Source: Deltaproteobacteria bacterium ADurb.Bin207 (GTDB lineage: Bacteria > Myxococcota_A > Polyangia > Polyangiales > Polyangiaceae). From it: a DNA stretch of 64,000 nt. The notes under the pieces were generated by a model. The model saw only the letters and a list, made by a program, of their open reading frames with translations, did no database searches and was not told the origin of the DNA. A program made the position numbers and the translations under genes. The stretch covers positions 1 through 64,000 of the forward strand of contig MWCO01000017.1 of NCBI GenBank assembly GCA_002070115.1, in the 5' to 3' direction. Below, piece after piece: positions 15,958-25,323 of the stretch (the first letter of the stretch is position 1; each line of letters begins with the position of its first letter).

Positions 15958-15975
15958 CTGTGAATATTATCACAG
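15958..15975. promoter_or_regulatory. probable Rex operator in front of rex
   Basis: CTGTGAATATTATCACAG is a perfect 18-bp palindrome 20 bp before the rex start codon. It keeps the TGTGA-N6-TCACA core of the described Rex operators (TTGTGAAATATTTCACAA type). This is the expected site of autorepression when NADH is low. Confidence 0.8.
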
Positions 15976-15995: not shown

Positions 15996-16679
15996 GTGCC
16001 CCAAAAGCGAGCATCTACCCCAACGAACGATACGGCACCGGTGGCGACGGGCACGGGGAAACGAATTTCTTTGGGAACGGTGGAGCGTCTTTCGGTGTAC
16101 CGCTCGGTGCTCGAAGAACTCCACGAAGATGGCGTAGCGTCCGTGTACTCTCACCAACTCGCGGAAATGGTGGGGGTGACCCCCGCCCAATTGCGTCGGG
16201 ATCTCGCGAGCTTTGGGTCTTTTGGCAACATCGCTCGCGGCTATCCGGTGTTCGAGATGGCGCGAACGATAAGCGGGATCCTTCATACGGACACGATGCA
16301 AGTGCTGGCATTATTTGGCGTGGGCGACTTGGGGCGAGCTTTGTTGACGTATCGTGGATTCGAGGAGCGAGGCTTTCGTATCGGCGTCGTTTTCGATATC
16401 GACCCTGCGAAAGCGGGAAAAGTATTCGCGGGGCGACGCTGTTATCATCTGGACCAGCTCGAAAGCGCCCTTCCTGATTTCGATGTGCGGATTGCCGTCC
16501 TGGCGTGCCGTCCCGCCGGTGTCGAAGGTATCGTGGAGCGTTTGGGGCGCCTAGGAGTTCGTAACATCTTGAATTTTGTGCCAAAACGCGTGAAGCCGGT
16601 GCCGGGGGGCTATGTGGAGCATGTTGATATTTCAGGGAAATTGGAAAAACTATCGTTCTTGAGCAGCCAGCGTCGCTAA
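15996..16679 (+). CDS. rex: redox-sensing transcriptional repressor Rex
   Basis: 227 residues from GTG 15996. Seen: N-terminal winged-helix segment (YSHQLAEMVGVTPAQLRRDL, then FGSFG) and a Rossmann domain with GVGDLGRALL followed by an acidic end of strand two (VVFDIDPAK). Rex binds DNA when the NADH/NAD ratio is low and leaves when NADH rises. A palindrome lies just upstream and a second before the hydrogenase operon, so rex probably represses itself and the hydrogenase genes. The N-terminus is about 20 residues longer than usual, Thr/Pro-rich. Unlike most Rex the last residues are basic. Confidence 0.95.
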   Translation: MPQKRASTPTNDTAPVATGTGKRISLGTVERLSVYRSVLEELHEDGVASVYSHQLAEMVGVTPAQLRRDLASFGSFGNIARGYPVFEMARTISGILHTDTMQVLALFGVGDLGRALLTYRGFEERGFRIGVVFDIDPAKAGKVFAGRRCYHLDQLESALPDFDVRIAVLACRPAGVEGIVERLGRLGVRNILNFVPKRVKPVPGGYVEHVDISGKLEKLSFLSSQRR

Positions 16680-16718
16680 CCGTTGCCTCGCTCCTCTGCT
16701 CTATTCTTTCGTTCCTTA

Positions 16719-16736
16719 TTGTGAAAAAAATCACTG
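16719..16736. promoter_or_regulatory. probable Rex operator before the hydrogenase operon
   Basis: TTGTGAAAAAAATCACTG carries the GTGA-N6-TCAC core of the Rex operator, with the outer bases imperfect. It lies 46 bp before the receiver gene that opens the hydrogenase operon. A second GTGA half-site follows directly (TGTGAAACCGTGAA). Confidence 0.7.
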
Positions 16737-16781
16737 TGAAACCGTGAACGAAATCGGTATCAACCCCATCGGAGGCCAACC

Positions 16782-17207
16782 ATGAACACTCACCATATCC
16801 TGCTCGTCGATGACGACCGCGACTTGCTCCTTTCCATCCAAGCTTTCCTCACGCCAAGAGGATATCGTGTCTCCTGCGCCGCCTCCGGTGCAGAAGCCAA
16901 ACAACTCATCCCCTCCTCTCGCCCAGACCTCATCGTCCTCGATGTCATGATGGAATCCGACACCGAAGGACTCGTCCTCGCCCAAGAACTCCAGCGTGAC
17001 CCCCAAACCCAGTCCATCCCGGTCATCCTGCTCACGGGCTTTATGGAACACCTCGACGAAAAGCGGCAAACCATGCTCTTTGCCCTCGATCAGCCCTGGC
17101 CCGGAGCCAAACTCCTCGAAAAACCCGTCCACCTCGATACCTTGGCCTCCACCATCGAACGTCTCCTCGAGGAACGTCGGGTGCTCGACGCCGCGAAAGA
17201 AGGATAG
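16782..17207 (+). CDS. single-domain response regulator (first of two in the operon)
   Basis: 141 residues, CheY-like receiver only. Seen: acidic pocket DDDRD near residues 9-13, phospho-acceptor Asp in LIVLDVMM, Thr in LLTGF and Lys in LLEKPV. The C-terminus is a charged helix without an output domain. It is the first gene behind the Rex-box and closely resembles the second receiver at 23453 (same DDDRD, DxMME and LLTG contexts), suggesting duplication. Probably phosphorylated by the hydrogenase-like kinase or the PAS kinase of this operon. Stop and the next start are 1 bp apart. Confidence 0.9.
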   Translation: MNTHHILLVDDDRDLLLSIQAFLTPRGYRVSCAASGAEAKQLIPSSRPDLIVLDVMMESDTEGLVLAQELQRDPQTQSIPVILLTGFMEHLDEKRQTMLFALDQPWPGAKLLEKPVHLDTLASTIERLLEERRVLDAAKEG

Positions 17208-17208
17208 C

Positions 17209-17655
17209 ATGCCGTCTTCCTCTACACCCGGGCCCGAAGCCTTGATTCCCTTGCTTCAGCAAGCTCAAGCCAGAGACGGGTTTCTTTCCCCCTCCGTCAT
17301 GACGGATATCGCGAAATTACTCGGGATTCCTGTCAGTCGTGTCTTTGGAGTCGCCACCTTTTATAACCAATTTCGACTGGCTCCCCTGGGAGAACACGTG
17401 ATCGAAGTATGTCGGGGGACGGCTTGTCATGTGAAACAGAGTCTTACGTTATATCAGGCGTTGGAGCGGCGTCTTCGCTTGCGGGCCGATGGAAATTCCC
17501 CCGACGGCAAGTTCTCTGTCGTGACAGTGGCCTGTTTGGGCGCCTGTTCCATGGCACCTGTCCTACGGCTTGATGGCCAGTTCTATGGCCATCTTACCGT
17601 GGAGTCGTTGGACGCGCTGCTCACCGAGTTGGAGCAATCTCAACGGGCGGCATGA
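17209..17655 (+). CDS. hydC: NADH-linked hydrogenase, NuoE-like [2Fe-2S] subunit (HydC/HndA type)
   Basis: 148 residues of the thioredoxin-like [2Fe-2S] family. Seen: an N-terminal helical part (DIAKLLGIPVSRVFGVATFYNQF) and the four cluster ligands in VCRGTACHV and VACLGACSMAP. It is the small electron-transfer subunit that pairs with the flavoprotein subunit in NADH-dependent [FeFe] hydrogenases and in complex I. Start ATG 17209 comes 1 bp after the receiver stop; a longer reading of the same frame from 16996 runs inside the receiver gene and is rejected. Position between receiver and flavoprotein genes confirms the role. Confidence 0.93.
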   Translation: MPSSSTPGPEALIPLLQQAQARDGFLSPSVMTDIAKLLGIPVSRVFGVATFYNQFRLAPLGEHVIEVCRGTACHVKQSLTLYQALERRLRLRADGNSPDGKFSVVTVACLGACSMAPVLRLDGQFYGHLTVESLDALLTELEQSQRAA

Positions 17656-17682
17656 GCCTGCCGTTGCGAATCAGGGAGATGC

Positions 17683-19680
17683 ATGATGGCAAGTAGTGAG
17701 CTTCTTTCCCCCTGTTGTTCGAAATGCAAGCATTCGCCCGCGGACCCTTGCCGTGACCGGATTCCCTGTCTTCAGCGAGGGCCGCTCTGCCATGACGATG
17801 ACTCTTGTCGTTCGCTGAAATCGGCTCGTTGGGAGCGTGCCCGACGGGGTGGAACCGGCACGATCCTATGGGTAGGCGCGGGGACGTGTGGTCGAGCGAA
17901 CGGGGCGTTGCGGGTGCTCGATACAATAAAAACTTATTTGCAAGACCGAAACATCGAGGCTCAGGTCGTGCAAGTGGGATGTTTGGGAAACTGCCAACAA
18001 GAAGTGCTGGTGGATATCCATGTAGATGGAAGTCCACGTTTTTGTTACGGAAATATTGGTGTCGACGATGTCCCGGGGCTGTTGGATTCCGTGCTGGCGC
18101 AGGGGGAATACCGTCATCCCCGCTTGATTGGCCGCCATGGAGGACCTGAAGTGGGGTTCGAGGATATTCCCGAGGTATTTCATACCCCTTATTTTGCTCT
18201 CCAGACGCGAAATGTATTGGAACGCTGTGGTCTTTTGGATCCGGAGAGTCTTGATGCGGCGTTGTCTTGGAGGGCTTTCGAGGCGGCGGCGCGGGCCCTT
18301 ACCACACTGACCCCCGAGGAAGTATGCGACGAAGTGGAAAGGGCGGGACTGCGAGGGCGAGGGGGTGCGGGATTTCCCACCGGGAAAAAGTGGCGCGTGG
18401 CCTTGCGGACCCCAAGTGCACAAAAATACCTGATTTGTAATGCCGACGAGGGGGATCCGGGGGCTTTCATGGATCGGGCGCTGCTGGAAAGCGACCCGTT
18501 TCGCATCATCGAAGGCATGCTGATTGCCGCGTATGCCATCGGCGCCACCCAGGGATACGTCTATTGTCGTGCTGAATACCCCCTTGCGATCGAACGCCTG
18601 GAAAAGGCCATCGCTCAATGCAGGGAGGCCGGCCTGTTAGGGAAAAATATTCTCGGATCCTTGGTGGACTTCGATATTACCATCAAGCAAGGGGCGGGAG
18701 CTTTCGTGTGCGGAGAGGAAACAGCTATCTTGCACTCCATCGAAGGGGGACGCGGCATGCCCCGTCCAAGACCGCCGTTTCCCGCTACCTCTGGCCTTTT
18801 TGGCAAGCCCACCATCCTCAATAACGTGGAGACGCTGGCGAATGTACCGTCGATCCTGCTTCGGGGCGCCGATTGGTTTCACAGCTTGGGCCTTGATGGC
18901 GCTGCGGGGACGAAGGTCTTTGCCCTCAGCGGTGCCGTGAAAAACACCGGGCTGGTCGAAGTGCCTGTCGGGACCTCCTTGCGACGCATCGTAGGCGAGA
19001 TTGGAGGCGGTGCGCCGGAGCCGCATCGCATCAAGGCCGTGCAAATCGGAGGCCCCAGCGGCGGCTGCATTCCCGAGGCTTTGCTCGATGTCGCGGTGGA
19101 CTATGGAGCCTTGCAACGGCTCGGCGCCATGATGGGATCCGGGGGATTGGTGCTCATGGACGAGCGTTCGTGCATGGTCGATGTTGCCAAGTTTTTTATG
19201 GAATTCGTTCGAAACGAGTCCTGTGGCAAATGCGCGCCCTGCCGAGAAGGCACCACGCGCATGCACGAAATCCTGACGTTGGTGGCAGAGCGTCCGGTCG
19301 GCTCCGATCTTCGTCGCCTCGAGCGGCTTCAAGCCATGCTGTATCTCGAGGAACTGGCCACCACCGTCCGTGACGCTTCCCTTTGTGGGCTCGGTCAATC
19401 CGCTCCGAACCCGGTCTTGTCCACCCTTCGGTTTTTCCGTGAAGAAGTGGAAGCCCACATTCTCGAAGGTCGCTGCCCTGCCGGTGCGTGCCAGGGATTA
19501 CGAGTCTATGAGATTGATAATGAGCGCTGCATTGGCTGCTTGCTTTGCAAAAAACAATGCCCTTCCGGCGCCATTGTCGGCGAACGGAAACACGCCCATT
19601 ACATCGTAGTGGATTCCTGCGTTGGTTGTGGAAGTTGCGTCGAGGTTTGTCCCAAGGACGCCATTCACCGCGCGGCTTGA
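17683..19680 (+). CDS. hydB: NADH-linked hydrogenase flavoprotein subunit (NuoF/HydB-like)
   Basis: 665 residues. Seen in order: an unusual N-terminal stretch with seven cysteines in the first 42 residues; a thioredoxin-like [2Fe-2S] part with only three of the four usual cysteines (C69, C100, C104); FMN and NADH binding motifs RGRGGAGFPTGKKW and NADEGDPGAF; GAGAFVCGEETAILHSIEG; the [4Fe-4S] motif SCGKCAPCREGT; and two C-terminal [4Fe-4S] ferredoxin motifs (CIGCLLCKKQCP and CVGCGSCVEVCP). It oxidises or makes NAD(P)H and exchanges electrons with HydA and ferredoxin, the site of flavin-based bifurcation in trimeric hydrogenases. Whether this one bifurcates is inference. ATG 17686 is an equal start candidate. 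Confidence 0.93.
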   Translation: MMASSELLSPCCSKCKHSPADPCRDRIPCLQRGPLCHDDDSCRSLKSARWERARRGGTGTILWVGAGTCGRANGALRVLDTIKTYLQDRNIEAQVVQVGCLGNCQQEVLVDIHVDGSPRFCYGNIGVDDVPGLLDSVLAQGEYRHPRLIGRHGGPEVGFEDIPEVFHTPYFALQTRNVLERCGLLDPESLDAALSWRAFEAAARALTTLTPEEVCDEVERAGLRGRGGAGFPTGKKWRVALRTPSAQKYLICNADEGDPGAFMDRALLESDPFRIIEGMLIAAYAIGATQGYVYCRAEYPLAIERLEKAIAQCREAGLLGKNILGSLVDFDITIKQGAGAFVCGEETAILHSIEGGRGMPRPRPPFPATSGLFGKPTILNNVETLANVPSILLRGADWFHSLGLDGAAGTKVFALSGAVKNTGLVEVPVGTSLRRIVGEIGGGAPEPHRIKAVQIGGPSGGCIPEALLDVAVDYGALQRLGAMMGSGGLVLMDERSCMVDVAKFFMEFVRNESCGKCAPCREGTTRMHEILTLVAERPVGSDLRRLERLQAMLYLEELATTVRDASLCGLGQSAPNPVLSTLRFFREEVEAHILEGRCPAGACQGLRVYEIDNERCIGCLLCKKQCPSGAIVGERKHAHYIVVDSCVGCGSCVEVCPKDAIHRAA

Positions 19681-19701
19681 GCCGCGAGTCGAGGTCGAAG
19701 C

Positions 19702-21411
19702 ATGAGCATCGTCATTGATGGCATTACCGTTGACACCTCCCCGGGCGAGACCGTCCTTACCGCTGCCAAGCGCGCGGGTATCGAGATCCCAAGCCTTTGT
19801 GTCCTTCCCTGCGCTTCCACGCCGGCGGGCGCATGCCGCCTATGCCTTGTCGAGGTGGAAGGGGAATCCCGTTTGCAAACGAGTTGTACCCTTCCGGCTC
19901 GAGATGGTCTGGTCATTCGAGCCCACACGCCTCGCCTGCTCACCATTCGTCGTCATATCGTGGAATTGATGCTCTCGAATGCCAAGCACGATTGCGCTGT
20001 ATGTGCTCGCCAGGGAAGCTGCGAACTGGCCCATCTGGCGCGAAGGCTTGGCGTCCAACAGCGCAGATTCTCGGGGATTGAAAGAACGTGGCCGATCGAC
20101 ATCTCCTCGCCGGCGCTGACGCGAGATCCGAATAAATGCGTATTGTGCGGGCGCTGCGTCACCGTATGCCATCAAGGGCAAGGCGTGGGAGCCATCGACT
20201 TTGCGGGCCGGGGCTTCACCACACGGGTAAGTCCTGGATTTCATTCGAGTCTCAATGGTTCCGCCTGCGTGTTCTGCGGCCAATGCACCCGGGTTTGCCC
20301 CACCGGTGCCTTGATGGAAAAAAGCCATGTCGAGGGGGTGGTGCAGGCATTGGCCGACCCGGATTGTTTCGTCGTTGCGCAAATTGCCCCCGCCATCCCC
20401 GCCACCCTTGCCGAGGGCGGACCTGAAGAGCCCTTGGCCACGACACTCGAGCGTCTTTGCGACGTGTTGCACCGAATCGGCTTCCACGCCGTTTTCGATA
20501 CCACGTTTGCGGCGGATCTCACGGTTGTGGAGGAAGCTACCGAACTGGTCGAGCGCATTCGCCATGGCGGCGTTCTTCCCATGTTTACAAGCTGCTCTCC
20601 GGCGTGGGTCCATTACGTGGAGACGCACGCCCCCCACCTCATCGCTCACCTTTCCACGTGCAAATCGCCCCAGCAAATGGCTGCCTCGCTCATCAAACGG
20701 GTGCTACCCTCCCGCCTCGACCCCAAACCGCGTCGCATCGTCAGTGTCTCCATCATGCCCTGCACGGCGAAAAAAGCCGAGGCCAGCGACCAAGGGGAAG
20801 TGGACTTCGTGCTCACCACGCGAGAGTTGATCAAATTGATGGAACGGTTCGGAATCGATTGGGCCCGAAGCGTCGGGCGTCGTCCGTTGGATTCACCGTT
20901 TGCGGACTCGACGGGAGCCGGAAGGCTATTTGGAGGAACCGGTGGGGTCATGGAAGCGGCGATCCGAACGGTTCACAAGCTGATCACCGATAAGGATTTG
21001 CGGGACGGTTGGAAAATACCTGGCGCGCGAGGGATGGGGCCGATTCGAGATTTCTCCTTGAATATCGAAGGGTTAGATCTTGGGTTCGCCGTGGTGAGCG
21101 GCATCGGTCATGTCCCTGCCCTGCTGAAGGACATTGAGGCCAAACGTCTGTCTGTGCATTTCGTTGAGGTCATGTCCTGTCCCGGAGGATGCGTGGCGGG
21201 CGGTGGACAGCCTTACGATACGAATGTCGACTCGGTTCAGCAGCGCATCGCGCGATTGCAAGAAGCGGATCGACGGGCGCGACAGCGCGGCTCGCATACA
21301 AGTCCTGCGATTGCAGCGCTTTACGAGCAGGTGTTTGGCGTTGCGGGAGGAGAGGCGAGTCACCGTCTGCTCCATCGGCATTACGTCGACCGCAGTGTAG
21401 AGGAAGGATGA
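19702..21411 (+). CDS. hydA: [FeFe] hydrogenase catalytic subunit HydA (trimeric type)
   Basis: 569 residues. Seen in order: plant-type [2Fe-2S] cysteines (C33, C37, C45, C48, C62), a His/Cys [4Fe-4S] site (H96, C98, C101, C107), two ferredoxin [4Fe-4S] motifs (C146-C156, C189-C199), and the H-cluster domain with TSCSPAW (C298), MPCTAKKAE (C354) and EVMSCPGGCVAGGGQP (C493, C497). It interconverts protons and H2. The first H-cluster motif carries Ser where classic enzymes have the second Cys of TSCCP; see findings. The active site needs HydE, HydF and HydG, which are not in this window. Its TGA overlaps the next ATG. Confidence 0.95.
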   Translation: MSIVIDGITVDTSPGETVLTAAKRAGIEIPSLCVLPCASTPAGACRLCLVEVEGESRLQTSCTLPARDGLVIRAHTPRLLTIRRHIVELMLSNAKHDCAVCARQGSCELAHLARRLGVQQRRFSGIERTWPIDISSPALTRDPNKCVLCGRCVTVCHQGQGVGAIDFAGRGFTTRVSPGFHSSLNGSACVFCGQCTRVCPTGALMEKSHVEGVVQALADPDCFVVAQIAPAIPATLAEGGPEEPLATTLERLCDVLHRIGFHAVFDTTFAADLTVVEEATELVERIRHGGVLPMFTSCSPAWVHYVETHAPHLIAHLSTCKSPQQMAASLIKRVLPSRLDPKPRRIVSVSIMPCTAKKAEASDQGEVDFVLTTRELIKLMERFGIDWARSVGRRPLDSPFADSTGAGRLFGGTGGVMEAAIRTVHKLITDKDLRDGWKIPGARGMGPIRDFSLNIEGLDLGFAVVSGIGHVPALLKDIEAKRLSVHFVEVMSCPGGCVAGGGQPYDTNVDSVQQRIARLQEADRRARQRGSHTSPAIAALYEQVFGVAGGEASHRLLHRHYVDRSVEEG

Positions 21412-23456
21412 AAGGACTCATGAACGCAGCTCCCGTCCATGAAGGACGAGGTGAGGAAAGCGGCAACGTGATTAGTACGGTGTTGGGCAAGTGCCGTCGG
21501 TGCTTCACGTGTGTGCGGGCCTGTCCGGCGAAGGCGATACGGTTCGAGCAGGGGCAGGCGAGGGTGGTGGAAGAGCGATGTATCGCTTGCGGCAATTGTG
21601 TCGTGGTATGTGCGCAACACGCGAAAGAGTACCGGTCGGGATTGGAGAAAACGCTCGAGTTGCTTGGCGGGGAGCAGCCGGTGGCGGCGTTGGTGGCACC
21701 ATCGTTTCCCGCGGAGTTTTTCGAATTGGATGCGCAACGACTCGTGGGAGCGCTTCGCAAACTGGGCTTTGCCTACGTGGTGGAGGTGGCTCATGGGGCT
21801 GATTTGGTGAGCGCGGCCTATCAGCGACAGATGCCGCATAGGAAAGGGCCATGCATTGCTTCGGCGTGTCCCGCGGTGAACGAGTACATTCGAAAATACG
21901 CCCCCCATTTGGTCGAGAAGCTGATTCCGGTCGTGTCGCCGATGATTGCGACGGCTCGTGCCGTGCATGCGGTATATGGCGAACACGTTCGCTGTGTGTT
22001 CATGGGTCCGTGTGTGGCGAAAAAGCGCGAGGCATGGGATCCGCAAGTGGCGGGGGAGGTCGACGAGGTTCTTACCTTTCGCGAAGTGCGCTCGTTGTTC
22101 GAGCGTCAAGGGATTGTCTTGGACCAGCAGCAGGACAGTGATTTCGATCCTCCCCGGGCGGGGTTGGGACGGTTGTATCCGTTGGTGGGAGGATTGCTCA
22201 AAGCCATGGGGCACGAGCGCAATCTTTTACAACCGGAAGCCATCGTCATCAGCGGTCATCAAGAGACACTCGAAGTATTGGGCAAGCTGTCTGGTGATGA
22301 ATCTTTTGCTTCTCTCATCGAGCCGTTGATGTGCCGCGGTTGTTATTCGGGGCCGGGGATGAGTCCCGGACGGCAACGGTTCGAACGAAAACAAGCGGTG
22401 GTGGCATACGTTAGGGAGCAAATGAAACGCGGCTCGGAACAAGACCTTGCGCCATCGGGTGACGAGTCGATTTCGCTTTCGAGAGTGTTTGTACCGGACG
22501 AACGTCGTCTTGCGGAGCCCCCGGAAGCGGAGCTTCGACGCATTTTGGCGCAGACCAACAAGTTTTCGCCGAGCGATGAACTCAATTGTGGCGCGTGTGG
22601 TTATGCGACATGTCGAGAAAAAGCGGTGGCGGTGTATCACGGTCTTGCGGAAGACGCGATGTGTCTTCCGTTCATGCTCGAGGCGGCCGAGCGTGTATGT
22701 GAGGAATTGAAGCTGCCGTGGTTGGAATTGCGCGAGGTGCAAAGTCACCTGGTCAATTCGGAGAAGCTCGTTTCGCTCGGTCAAATGGCCGCGGGCATCG
22801 CTCATGAACTCAACAATCCTTTGGGAACGATCTTGCTTTATGCGGGCATCCTGAGAAAAAAGCTAGGAAACCGAGAGGATTTGCGCCACGACCTCGACCT
22901 TCTCTCGGACGAATCACAGCGCTGTAAGCGCATCATTGGTAGTTTGCTCGACTTCGCACGGCAGAATCGCGTCAAGCTCGAATCCGAAAAGGTGGCGCGT
23001 CTGTTTCGTGATGCGGTGGAAACGTCCTTGGCGAATCGAGATCCGAACCTGCAAGTGCGGGTCGAGGTATCCGACGATCTGCAAGTGGAGGTGGATCGCG
23101 ACCAGCTTCGTCAAGTGCTCGACAATCTATGCAAGAACGCCGCGGAGGCGATGGAGGGACGCCAAGGCCATATCGTGTTGCGGGGCAGGGATGGACCGCG
23201 GGAGGGGACGGTGATTCTGAGCGTTTCGGACCAGGGCTGTGGGATGTCGAAAGAAGCGCAAGATATGATTTTTCAACCGTTTTTTACGACCAAGCGCATT
23301 GGAAAAGGGACGGGGCTGGGACTTCCGATTGCCTATGGAATCATCAAGATGCACCACGGAAGGATTTGGGTGGAGTCCGAAATCGGCGTGGGCACGACCG
23401 TGTTCATCGAGCTGCCGAGGCATCGAGCCCAGGTAGCGAGGAGTGTGATCGAATGA
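21408..23456 (+). CDS. hydrogenase-derived sensor fused to histidine kinase (HydS-HK)
   Basis: 682 residues. Domains seen: two ferredoxin [4Fe-4S] motifs (C29-C39, C58-C68); an [FeFe]-hydrogenase-like domain (about 80-340) with ASACPAV (C154), GPCVAKKRE (C202) and MCRGCYSGPG (C309, C312); a four-Cys Fe-S motif NCGACGYATC..C (C394, C397, C402, C419) of the PF04060 kind; then a histidine kinase with H466 in GIAHELNNPLG, N-box NLCKNAAEAM and GTGLGLPIAYG. The proton-relay Cys of the active enzyme is Ala here, as reported for sensory HydS hydrogenases, so I infer a sensor of H2 or redox state rather than an enzyme. Start ATG 21408 overlaps the hydA stop; ATG 21420 is the alternative. Confidence 0.9.
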   Translation: MKGLMNAAPVHEGRGEESGNVISTVLGKCRRCFTCVRACPAKAIRFEQGQARVVEERCIACGNCVVVCAQHAKEYRSGLEKTLELLGGEQPVAALVAPSFPAEFFELDAQRLVGALRKLGFAYVVEVAHGADLVSAAYQRQMPHRKGPCIASACPAVNEYIRKYAPHLVEKLIPVVSPMIATARAVHAVYGEHVRCVFMGPCVAKKREAWDPQVAGEVDEVLTFREVRSLFERQGIVLDQQQDSDFDPPRAGLGRLYPLVGGLLKAMGHERNLLQPEAIVISGHQETLEVLGKLSGDESFASLIEPLMCRGCYSGPGMSPGRQRFERKQAVVAYVREQMKRGSEQDLAPSGDESISLSRVFVPDERRLAEPPEAELRRILAQTNKFSPSDELNCGACGYATCREKAVAVYHGLAEDAMCLPFMLEAAERVCEELKLPWLELREVQSHLVNSEKLVSLGQMAAGIAHELNNPLGTILLYAGILRKKLGNREDLRHDLDLLSDESQRCKRIIGSLLDFARQNRVKLESEKVARLFRDAVETSLANRDPNLQVRVEVSDDLQVEVDRDQLRQVLDNLCKNAAEAMEGRQGHIVLRGRDGPREGTVILSVSDQGCGMSKEAQDMIFQPFFTTKRIGKGTGLGLPIAYGIIKMHHGRIWVESEIGVGTTVFIELPRHRAQVARSVIE

Positions 23457-23875
23457 GCCATACCATTGTATTCGTGGACGACGACCGGGACTTTCTTGCG
23501 GCGCAGTCGGCTTTTTTCGCCGCGCGGGGATATGTCGTGCATACGGCGGAACGCGAAGATCGCGCGTTGGAACTGCTGCATGAGATCACTCCGAACGTCA
23601 TCGTGCTCGACTTGATGATGGAACGGGCCGACACGGGCGTAGCTCTGAGCCATAAAATCCGCCAAATCGAAGCGCTCCGTGCTGTGCCGATCATTCTGCT
23701 CACCGGCGTCGTAGCAGCCACGGGTCGTCGGCTCGATCTCGATGTGGCAGCGCTTCGTCGTTGGGCGGGAATCGATGAATACCTGGACAAGCCGGTGACG
23801 GCCAGGCAGTTGCTTCGCGCGGTCGAGTCGCTGATCCATCGATCCAATCAAGATTCGGCGTCGGAGGAGGCATGA
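23453..23875 (+). CDS. single-domain response regulator (second of two in the operon)
   Basis: 140-residue CheY-like receiver: DDDRD acid pocket, phospho-acceptor Asp in VIVLDLMME, Thr in ILLTGV, Lys in LDKPV. No output domain. It overlaps both neighbours by ATGA, so its translation is tied to the sensor kinase before it and the PAS kinase after it. It is the natural phospho-acceptor of the hydrogenase-like kinase (inference) and is paralogous to the receiver that opens the operon. Confidence 0.9.
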   Translation: MSHTIVFVDDDRDFLAAQSAFFAARGYVVHTAEREDRALELLHEITPNVIVLDLMMERADTGVALSHKIRQIEALRAVPIILLTGVVAATGRRLDLDVAALRRWAGIDEYLDKPVTARQLLRAVESLIHRSNQDSASEEA

Positions 23876-25323
23876 CAGGCACTGTTCTCGTCATCGAGGA
23901 TGAATACGGTGTGCGGACGGGGATTGAACAAATCCTTCGGATGGAGGGTTTTGAAGTGTGGTCGGCCGCATGCGCTCGTGAGGCGATCGATCACTTGAAG
24001 ACCAAAACGTTCGATGTTGCCCTCATCGACTATCAGCTTCCAGACGTGGATGGTCTCACGCTGCTTCATCAGATCCAACAGCATGACGGTTTGACCAAGA
24101 CGTGTATGATCACGGCGTATGCGAACATCGACATGGCGATTGCCGCTACGCGGCAGGGGGTGGATTTTTTTCTACCCAAACCTTTCACGCCAGAGGATTT
24201 GGTGGGTGTCGTCAACAATTTGTTGAAACGACGTCACGTGGAGATCGAGGCGGCACGGCTTCGAGAGGCTCATGAAGCGAGTCTGATCGCTTTGGCTTCG
24301 GAGAAAAGCCAGACGCACTCGTTGGTAAGTTGTTTGCGGGATGCGGTTCTGGTGGTCAATGCGGCGGGGCATGTCGTGTTGGTCAATCCCTCGATGGCGC
24401 GGTTGCTTGGATCGAATGCCGAGCAGGTCGTGGGTCAACCTGTGATGGATGTGCTTGCCGCTCCCGCATTTGGGCCACTGCGAGAACAACTGGAAACGCC
24501 GGAGGAAAAACGAGGCGTGTTCGAATGCGAGATCGACGATCGCGCGCATATGGTTCGCGTGGTGGTGTTTCGGGACGAAGAGGGAACGGCTCGTGGAAGT
24601 ATCGTAACGCTGTCGGATATCTCGGAAGTGCGTCGGTTGGCGGTGGAAAAGTCCCGATTTTTACGCACTCTCGTTCATGAATTGCGGTCCCCTCTCGGAG
24701 CGATTCGCTCTTTGCTCGAAGTCGTGATGGATCGAAGCTTGGGCGAAGAGATGAATGCGTATGATTCGTTTTTACAACGAGCGGATGCGCGTATTGAAAA
24801 CCTGGTGGGTATGGTTGGGCAATTGCTCACGTTGTCTCGGGTCGATGAACAGCGAACCACCGAAAGTTGCGAACCCATGGCTCCCGCCCAGGTCGTGGAA
24901 GAGGTCGCAAAACTCTACGAAGACCAAGCGAGAAGTCGAGGGATCACGATCCGCTGCACGCTGTCGGATGGCGATGAGCGCGTACGATTGGACCGCGATG
25001 AATGGCAGACGATCGTGGGCAATCTCATCGGAAACGCCGTCAAGTACAACAAGCCGAATGGCATGGTGGAGATTGTCTTGCAGCGTGAGCAAGGCTGGCT
25101 TCGGCTCGATGTGCGGGATACGGGCATTGGGATGTCATCGGATGGCGCGCGGCGCGTATTCGAGGAATTTTATCGAGAACGACGGGCGGAGACCCGCGAT
25201 ACCGAAGGCAATGGTCTTGGTCTTTCCATCGTTCAGCGATTGGTGCAGCGAAAGGGAGGGAGCATCGACGTTTCTTCGGTGCTTGGGGAAGGGACGAGCT
25301 TTTGCGTACGGCTGCCTGTATGA
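23872..25323 (+). CDS. receiver-PAS-histidine kinase
   Basis: 483 residues. Order: receiver (1-120; IEDE, Asp in ALIDYQLPD, Thr in MITAYAN, Lys in LPKPF), PAS (about 150-255; VVNAAGHVVLVNPSMARLLG), HisKA with His in LVHELRSPLGAI, and HATPase with NLIGNAVKYN, DTGIGM and GNGLGLSIV. No membrane segment, so cytoplasmic. The N-terminal receiver allows input from another kinase, such as the hydrogenase-like one, making this a phosphorelay step. It is the last gene of the hydrogenase operon, stopping 1 bp before the convergent GH114 gene. Confidence 0.9.
   Translation: MTGTVLVIEDEYGVRTGIEQILRMEGFEVWSAACAREAIDHLKTKTFDVALIDYQLPDVDGLTLLHQIQQHDGLTKTCMITAYANIDMAIAATRQGVDFFLPKPFTPEDLVGVVNNLLKRRHVEIEAARLREAHEASLIALASEKSQTHSLVSCLRDAVLVVNAAGHVVLVNPSMARLLGSNAEQVVGQPVMDVLAAPAFGPLREQLETPEEKRGVFECEIDDRAHMVRVVVFRDEEGTARGSIVTLSDISEVRRLAVEKSRFLRTLVHELRSPLGAIRSLLEVVMDRSLGEEMNAYDSFLQRADARIENLVGMVGQLLTLSRVDEQRTTESCEPMAPAQVVEEVAKLYEDQARSRGITIRCTLSDGDERVRLDRDEWQTIVGNLIGNAVKYNKPNGMVEIVLQREQGWLRLDVRDTGIGMSSDGARRVFEEFYRERRAETRDTEGNGLGLSIVQRLVQRKGGSIDVSSVLGEGTSFCVRLPV

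Follow-up and report, generated by a model that had tools for sequence, protein, structure and literature searches.

A predicted sensor histidine kinase built on an [FeFe]-hydrogenase fold, with a shortened cysteine motif, encoded beside hydABC in a Polyangiaceae genome

Two putative sensory [FeFe]-hydrogenases (HydS) are known in purified form: TmHydS of Thermotoga maritima (group C / M2f; PMC10055695) and TamHydS (group D / M2e; PMC8163306, PMC13104023), a slow enzyme. The extra iron-sulfur (Fe-S) cluster of HydS proteins is defined by the spacing Cx2Cx4Cx16C (PMC8163306). Kinase-linked forms have also been named: PMC5037454 lists a HydDB group C1, “histidine kinase-linked (putative)”, while PMC11406978 reports BfuT of Hydrogenedentota as a histidine kinase beside group A3 genes, places the kinase type in C3 and hardly finds H-cluster motifs in its C1. 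Whether and how such proteins signal H2 is a standing question; those of groups C and D that have been investigated lack a measurable output. Here we describe a gene from the first 64,000 nucleotides (forward strand; hereafter the window) of contig MWCO01000017.1 of Deltaproteobacteria bacterium ADurb.Bin207 (GCA_002070115.1), whose product, P0001, addresses this question: sensor and kinase are parts of a single soluble polypeptide, the neighbouring gene encodes a likely receiver, and the signal should therefore be readable as phosphate. Its sequence is best explained as that of a cytoplasmic sensor kinase derived from an [FeFe]-hydrogenase of group C-like (HydS) type.

The gene shares 4 bases with hydA upstream, and both ATG 21408 and ATG 21420 are possible start codons. 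Its features are as follows:

21408..23456, + strand: predicted HydS-type sensor histidine kinase P0001, an open frame of 682 residues (open frame, Pfam, AlphaFold2 model)
21486..21617, + strand: two [4Fe-4S] ferredoxin motifs, C29 C32 C35 C39 and C58 C61 C64 C68 (Pfam; invariant in 73 rows)
21678..22355, + strand: [FeFe]-hydrogenase H-domain (Fe_hyd_lg_C), residues 91-316 (Pfam E 3.1e-44; structural match)
21858..21869, + strand: motif L1, ASAC, residues 151-154; A153 = CpI C299, C154 = C300 (CpI alignment)
22002..22022, + strand: motif L2, MGPCVAK; G200 = M353, C202 = C355, K205 = K358 (CpI alignment)
22332..22343, + strand: motif L3, CRGC (C309, C312), a CxxC one residue short of CxxxC (alignments, segment lengths)
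22581..22670, + strand: C-terminal [4Fe-4S] domain PF04060, residues 392-421 (Pfam; same motif as HydS, PMC8163306)
22776..22964, + strand: HisKA, residues 457-519, phospho-acceptor His466 with codon 22803-22805 (Pfam E 1.6e-15; invariant in 73 rows)
23094..23420, + strand: HATPase_c catalytic domain, residues 563-671 (Pfam E 1e-26)

The Pfam ferredoxin pair (Fer4) covers residues 27-71, and the PF04060 cysteines (C394, C397, C402 and C419) show exactly the Cx2Cx4Cx16C spacing. The signal-transduction output domains are HisKA and HATPase_c; a PAS domain is absent from the chain. His466 lies in the context AAGIAHELNN, and the kinase boxes (His466, N573/N577, D608-G610-G612 and G634-G636-G638) are intact and invariant in an alignment of P0001 with its relatives (73 rows, all distinct loci). 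Likewise invariant in 73/73 rows were C154, C202, C309, C312, the eight ferredoxin cysteines and the four C-terminal cysteines. A chance frame or frame artefact was rejected on the basis of the Pfam domains and this conservation.

In CpI the [2Fe] pocket is lined by K358, S323 and P231. Alignment with CpI placed its cubane-ligand positions C300, C355, C499 and C503 at C154, C202, C309 and C312 of P0001, with the proton-relay C299 replaced by A153; the positions of E279, E282 and S319 are A, R and I, while Y257 stands at F417 and M179 at Q325. Across 97 aligned kinase-type rows (some loci fetched twice), the equivalents of P231, S323, P324, C300, C355, K358, C499 and C503 were all invariant, and those of C299, M353, S319, E279 and E282 were not kept, the same changes as reported for purified, H-cluster-bearing HydS (PMC8163306, PMC10055695). 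A main role as a catalytic enzyme was rejected because the proton pathway is lost; with A153 and CRGC, P0001 also departs from the TSC relay Cys of motif 1 and the CxxxC of motif 3 that mark catalytic group A [FeFe]-hydrogenases. H2 sensing by P0001 is plausible, and a complete H-cluster with [2Fe] is putative. The AlphaFold2 model (73-sequence alignment) had a mean predicted local distance difference test score (pLDDT) of 86, mostly 90-98 in the H-domain and below 50 in the linker (residues 437-463), and matched CbA5H, with Z 41.2 and 3.0 A across 361 residues, as well as CpI, with Z about 40.

The second Cys of the motif 3 pair bridges to [2Fe] in CpI, and it is at this pair that P0001 and the rest of the kinase/sigma-54 branch are shortened. 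C309, G311 and C312 were invariant in all 73 rows; by segment length, CxGC was present in 86/87 kinase-type rows (the sole exception, L020, has CDGGC) and in all sigma-54-activator fusions in the set, whereas the catalytic HydA of the set are without exception CxxxC, as are its PAS-type and group D-like members. When motif 3 length was mapped onto a tree from which the motif columns had been left out, it required 3 changes vs 14.7 in shuffles. Given this and the near-universal CxGC, the shortening is, as judged from alignment and tree, an old and strictly kept feature of one branch. A strict test rejected the CxGC proteins as a single clade (approximately unbiased test, p-AU 3.4e-6), as expected, because L020 is nested inside. 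That the CxxC is a peculiarity of P0001 alone or a sequencing slip was ruled out by the same motif across relatives. Since the deletion falls on the [2Fe]-bridging Cys pair, it bears directly on a normal H-cluster in the kinase/sigma-54 branch.

These results agree in large part with a preliminary description of this DNA, made from the sequence and its open frames. Its reading of two ferredoxin clusters, an [FeFe]-hydrogenase-like domain, a four-Cys motif and a complete kinase in 682 residues was borne out by Pfam, and its motif positions (ASAC at 151-154, C202, C309, C312, His466), with Ala at the proton-relay Cys and Cys at the cubane ligand, by the CpI alignment. It had let the H2-sensing idea depend on the cysteines aligning with cluster ligands, which all four motif cysteines do, and had proposed structure prediction, in which the H-domain indeed matched known hydrogenases. 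It was also right that motif 3 is CxxC, but had taken as a minor deviation what proved to be a clade-wide one-residue deletion. Its further reading, an H-cluster that turns over poorly and a signal of H2, CO or redox state passed to His466, is putative.

The sensor gene belongs to an operon with the following other features:

15959..15973, no strand assigned: Rex-box palindrome TGTGAATATTATCAC, before rex (motif scan)
15996..16679, + strand: Rex-family NADH/NAD+ repressor (Pfam Put_DNA-bind_N + CoA_binding)
16720..16734, no strand assigned: Rex box TGTGAAAAAAATCAC, before the receiver/hydCBA operon (motif scan)
16782..17207, + strand: single-domain response regulator (REC) (Pfam)
17209..17655, + strand: hydC, NuoE-like [2Fe-2S] (Pfam; start deduced from where the preceding gene ends)
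17683..19680, + strand: hydB, NuoF-like, flavin mononucleotide/NADH, extra ferredoxin (Pfam)
19702..21411, + strand: hydA, catalytic trimeric-type [FeFe]-hydrogenase with TSCSP, MPCTAKK and CPGGC (Pfam, motifs)
23453..23875, + strand: single-domain REC, 4-base overlap with the kinase gene, probable partner (Pfam; conserved downstream neighbour)
23872..25323, + strand: REC-PAS-HisKA-HATPase protein, 4-base overlap with the REC gene (Pfam; conserved neighbour)

Because of the successive 4-base overlaps, the run of four genes from hydA through the sensor kinase and REC genes to the REC-PAS-kinase gene is probably translated as one group. The core TGTGAN6TCAC occurs at only two sites in the whole window, i.e. 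the two boxes above (three hits, as one site matches on both strands), with 0.5 hits expected, and was found at rex, hydC or receiver starts in 16 of the 61 related loci that have such starts. A loose consensus (TTGTGN8CACAA, two mismatches) gave 25 matches vs 23 by chance, i.e. no excess; the stricter core alone exceeded expectation. Thus the sequence makes it very likely that the operon is under Rex, i.e. NADH/NAD+, control. In motif 1 of the hydA product, TSCSP, a Ser occupies the position of the cubane ligand C300 of CpI; 25/43 HydA rows share this Ser, which PMC11406978 describes as frequent at that site.

A scan of bacterial and archaeal genomes yielded at least 500 confirmed relatives. 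The query patterns favour the kinase/sigma-54 branch, so that these counts are no estimate of general abundance. Among the matches listed, 80 loci spanning about 20 phyla were examined, over which the gene order hydC-hydB-hydA-sensor-REC-(REC-PAS-kinase) recurs: hydA lies directly upstream of the sensor in 54, a long REC-bearing frame at most 2 kb downstream in 61, and hydE, hydF or hydG within the fetched flanks in 29. In the window's phylum 30/379 sampled genomes had a match, and in the window's family 0/20 listed members. For all eight operon genes (15996-25323) the closest relatives were Actinomycetota/Thermoleophilia loci (L045-L047) with identical order and 47-73% identity, and the sensor tree groups P0001 with the same loci (100/99); for these reasons the operon probably moved horizontally as a unit. 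The P0001 family is widespread and unstudied, its members being likely hydrogen or redox sensors.

Other outputs and decayed forms were seen among the relatives. In Clostridia (L050, L107, L119 and the near relatives L137, L138 and L150-L153) a sigma-54 AAA+ activator bearing a DNA-binding helix-turn-helix (HTH) is joined to the CxGC sensor module, as assigned by Pfam on L050, L107 and L119; the L119 fusion adjoins hydE, hydF and hydG. A literature search on sigma-54 and sensory hydrogenase returned no direct report. In Bacteroidales (L075, L080, L089, L090, L091, L099 and L118, minus strand) a degenerate, divergently transcribed HydS lies beside the operon, with Ala, His or Asn at the K358 position and, in several, His at the C499 position.

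The genome of P0001 itself encodes HydE (on C57), HydG (on C28) and a HydF-like protein (on C28); HydE and HydG scored above cut-offs, while the HydF-like protein, which has both HydF C-terminal domains, reached 289 bits against a TIGR03918 cut-off of 325. The proposition of no maturases and hence no H-cluster was accordingly rejected. Two further catalytic HydA are encoded on C121 and C45. The space between hydF and hydG holds a second copy of the sensor cassette (L180, C28:22000-41900), ordered REC - Rex - sensor kinase (P0002) - REC-PAS-kinase, with no hydABC beside it on C28; thus the signalling genes form a cassette that accompanies the enzyme in one place and the maturases in the other. 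A further locus of this genome (L006, on C48) encodes a protein made up of HATPase, ferredoxin, partial hydrogenase and FeS parts, which resembles the HATPase-bearing group C1 of Hydrogenedentota.

For P0001 we favour H2 sensing by way of an H-cluster, to which we give slightly better than an even chance. HydE, HydF and HydG would load the [2Fe] unit beside the cubane held by C154, C202, C309 and C312; H2 itself, or the redox level that H2 and ferredoxin establish, would shift the state of the H-cluster; this change would travel via the C-terminal Fe-S domain and a helical linker (helix 438-486) and modify how His466 is autophosphorylated; phosphate would then be handed to the REC protein (23453-23875), to the REC domain within the REC-PAS-kinase (23872-25323) or to both; and the relay would adjust the HydABC hydrogenase, atop Rex NADH control. 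Several lines of evidence speak for it: i) the domains and the fold match; ii) the HydS residue pattern; iii) the recurrent gene order and the maturases; iv) the sigma-54 fusions; v) the Rex boxes. On the other side, the whole kinase/sigma-54 branch is one residue short at the Cys pair bridging cubane and [2Fe]; the HydS literature consulted for comparison holds no purified member of this branch; the C-terminal cluster of TamHydS is not reduced by H2 (PMC13104023), which makes the electron route to the kinase doubtful; and neither the operon nor the second cassette includes a DNA-binding response regulator.

The main rival, which we consider possible but on the whole unlikely, is a redox sensor without [2Fe], in which the four cysteines hold a [4Fe-4S] cluster only and ferredoxin or general redox state, not H2, is read. 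Two [4Fe-4S] ligands are commonly spaced as CxxC, which would suit such a plain cluster, and the division between kinase-type and sigma-54 proteins (CxGC) on one side and catalytic enzymes, PAS-type and group D proteins (CxxxC) on the other speaks for this rival. The Bacteroidales paralogues, which lack K358 and in several cases C499, indicate that the hydrogenase fold persists without a full site. On the other hand, the K358, S323 and P231 positions are invariant in the 97 kinase-type rows, and the loci are tied to hydEFG, with the second cassette lying right between hydF and hydG. We also consider, tentatively, an altered H-site in the kinase/sigma-54 branch, where the CxGC loop may change or remove the [4Fe-4S]-[2Fe] thiolate bridge to give a sensor-specific cofactor variant, H2-binding or redox-reading without turnover, kept in some 20 phyla. 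P0001 might instead sense CO or O2/NO cluster damage, with the hydrogenase being switched off in response, since CO and O2 are reactive towards H-clusters and towards [4Fe-4S] clusters that lie exposed; TamHydS reacts fast with O2, but known HydS are rather CO-tolerant (PMC8163306), and no signature of CO/O2 metabolism was seen in the loci, where none was searched for, which leaves this improbable. Still harder to credit is that the H-domain serves mainly for docking, binding HydABC and reporting its state by contact with no gas site of its own: the sensor gene does follow hydA directly with a 4-base overlap, a place kept in 54/80 loci, but the second cassette has no adjoining hydABC and the sigma-54 fusions work as single-polypeptide regulators. 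The strictness of the CxGC rule makes it a clean way to probe the role of the bridging loop, and the conserved operon separates Rex NADH control from control by the hydrogenase-like sensor.

Compared with known systems, P0001 has the group C (HydS) features of four cubane-ligand cysteines, loss of C299 and the proton pathway, a Cx2Cx4Cx16C domain and an output domain, but has CRGC where PAS-type group C proteins have CxxxC. Like TmHydS (PMC10055695), it combines two N-terminal [4Fe-4S] clusters, the H-domain and the C-terminal cluster, with Ala at C299 and Gly at M353; TmHydS, which has been matured and is active, bears a PAS domain and not a kinase. TamHydS (PMC8163306, PMC13104023) shares the Fe-S layout, Ala at C299 and a place near hydABC genes, but has no output domain and has Ser at M353, and the group D-like rows (CxxxC) form a tree branch separate from the kinase type. 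The HydS resemblance noted in the preliminary description thus stands for the loss of C299, E279, E282 and S319 and for M353 to Gly as in TmHydS, but not for motif 3: by its clade-wide deletion the kinase/sigma-54 branch differs from both purified HydS (for TmHydS, the contrast rests on the CxxxC of PAS-type relatives, not on its own sequence), and as far as described domains and relatives tell, neither represents this branch. The sigma-54 activators with Fe_hyd_lg_C in Clostridiales, of which PMC6615313 merely lists the domain, have the same sensor module, with CxGC in all rows, but AAA+ plus HTH as output. HoxJ-linked regulatory [NiFe]-hydrogenases (group 2b) offer an analogy in working, a hydrogenase-derived H2 sensor feeding a histidine kinase, though with an unrelated fold and metal site and in separate subunits. 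HydDB C1 and BfuT likewise couple a hydrogenase fold to a histidine-kinase domain, next to a bifurcating hydrogenase of group A3; they are described without biochemistry and, in the text consulted of PMC5037454 and PMC11406978, without mention of a CxGC rule. The sensor-kinase architecture first noticed in P0001 is therefore real but less new than it had seemed; the CxGC rule is the feature of the kinase/sigma-54 branch seen here. P0001 is best grouped with the putative sensory [FeFe]-hydrogenases of the histidine kinase-linked type, C1 by name (PMC5037454) and C3 according to PMC11406978.

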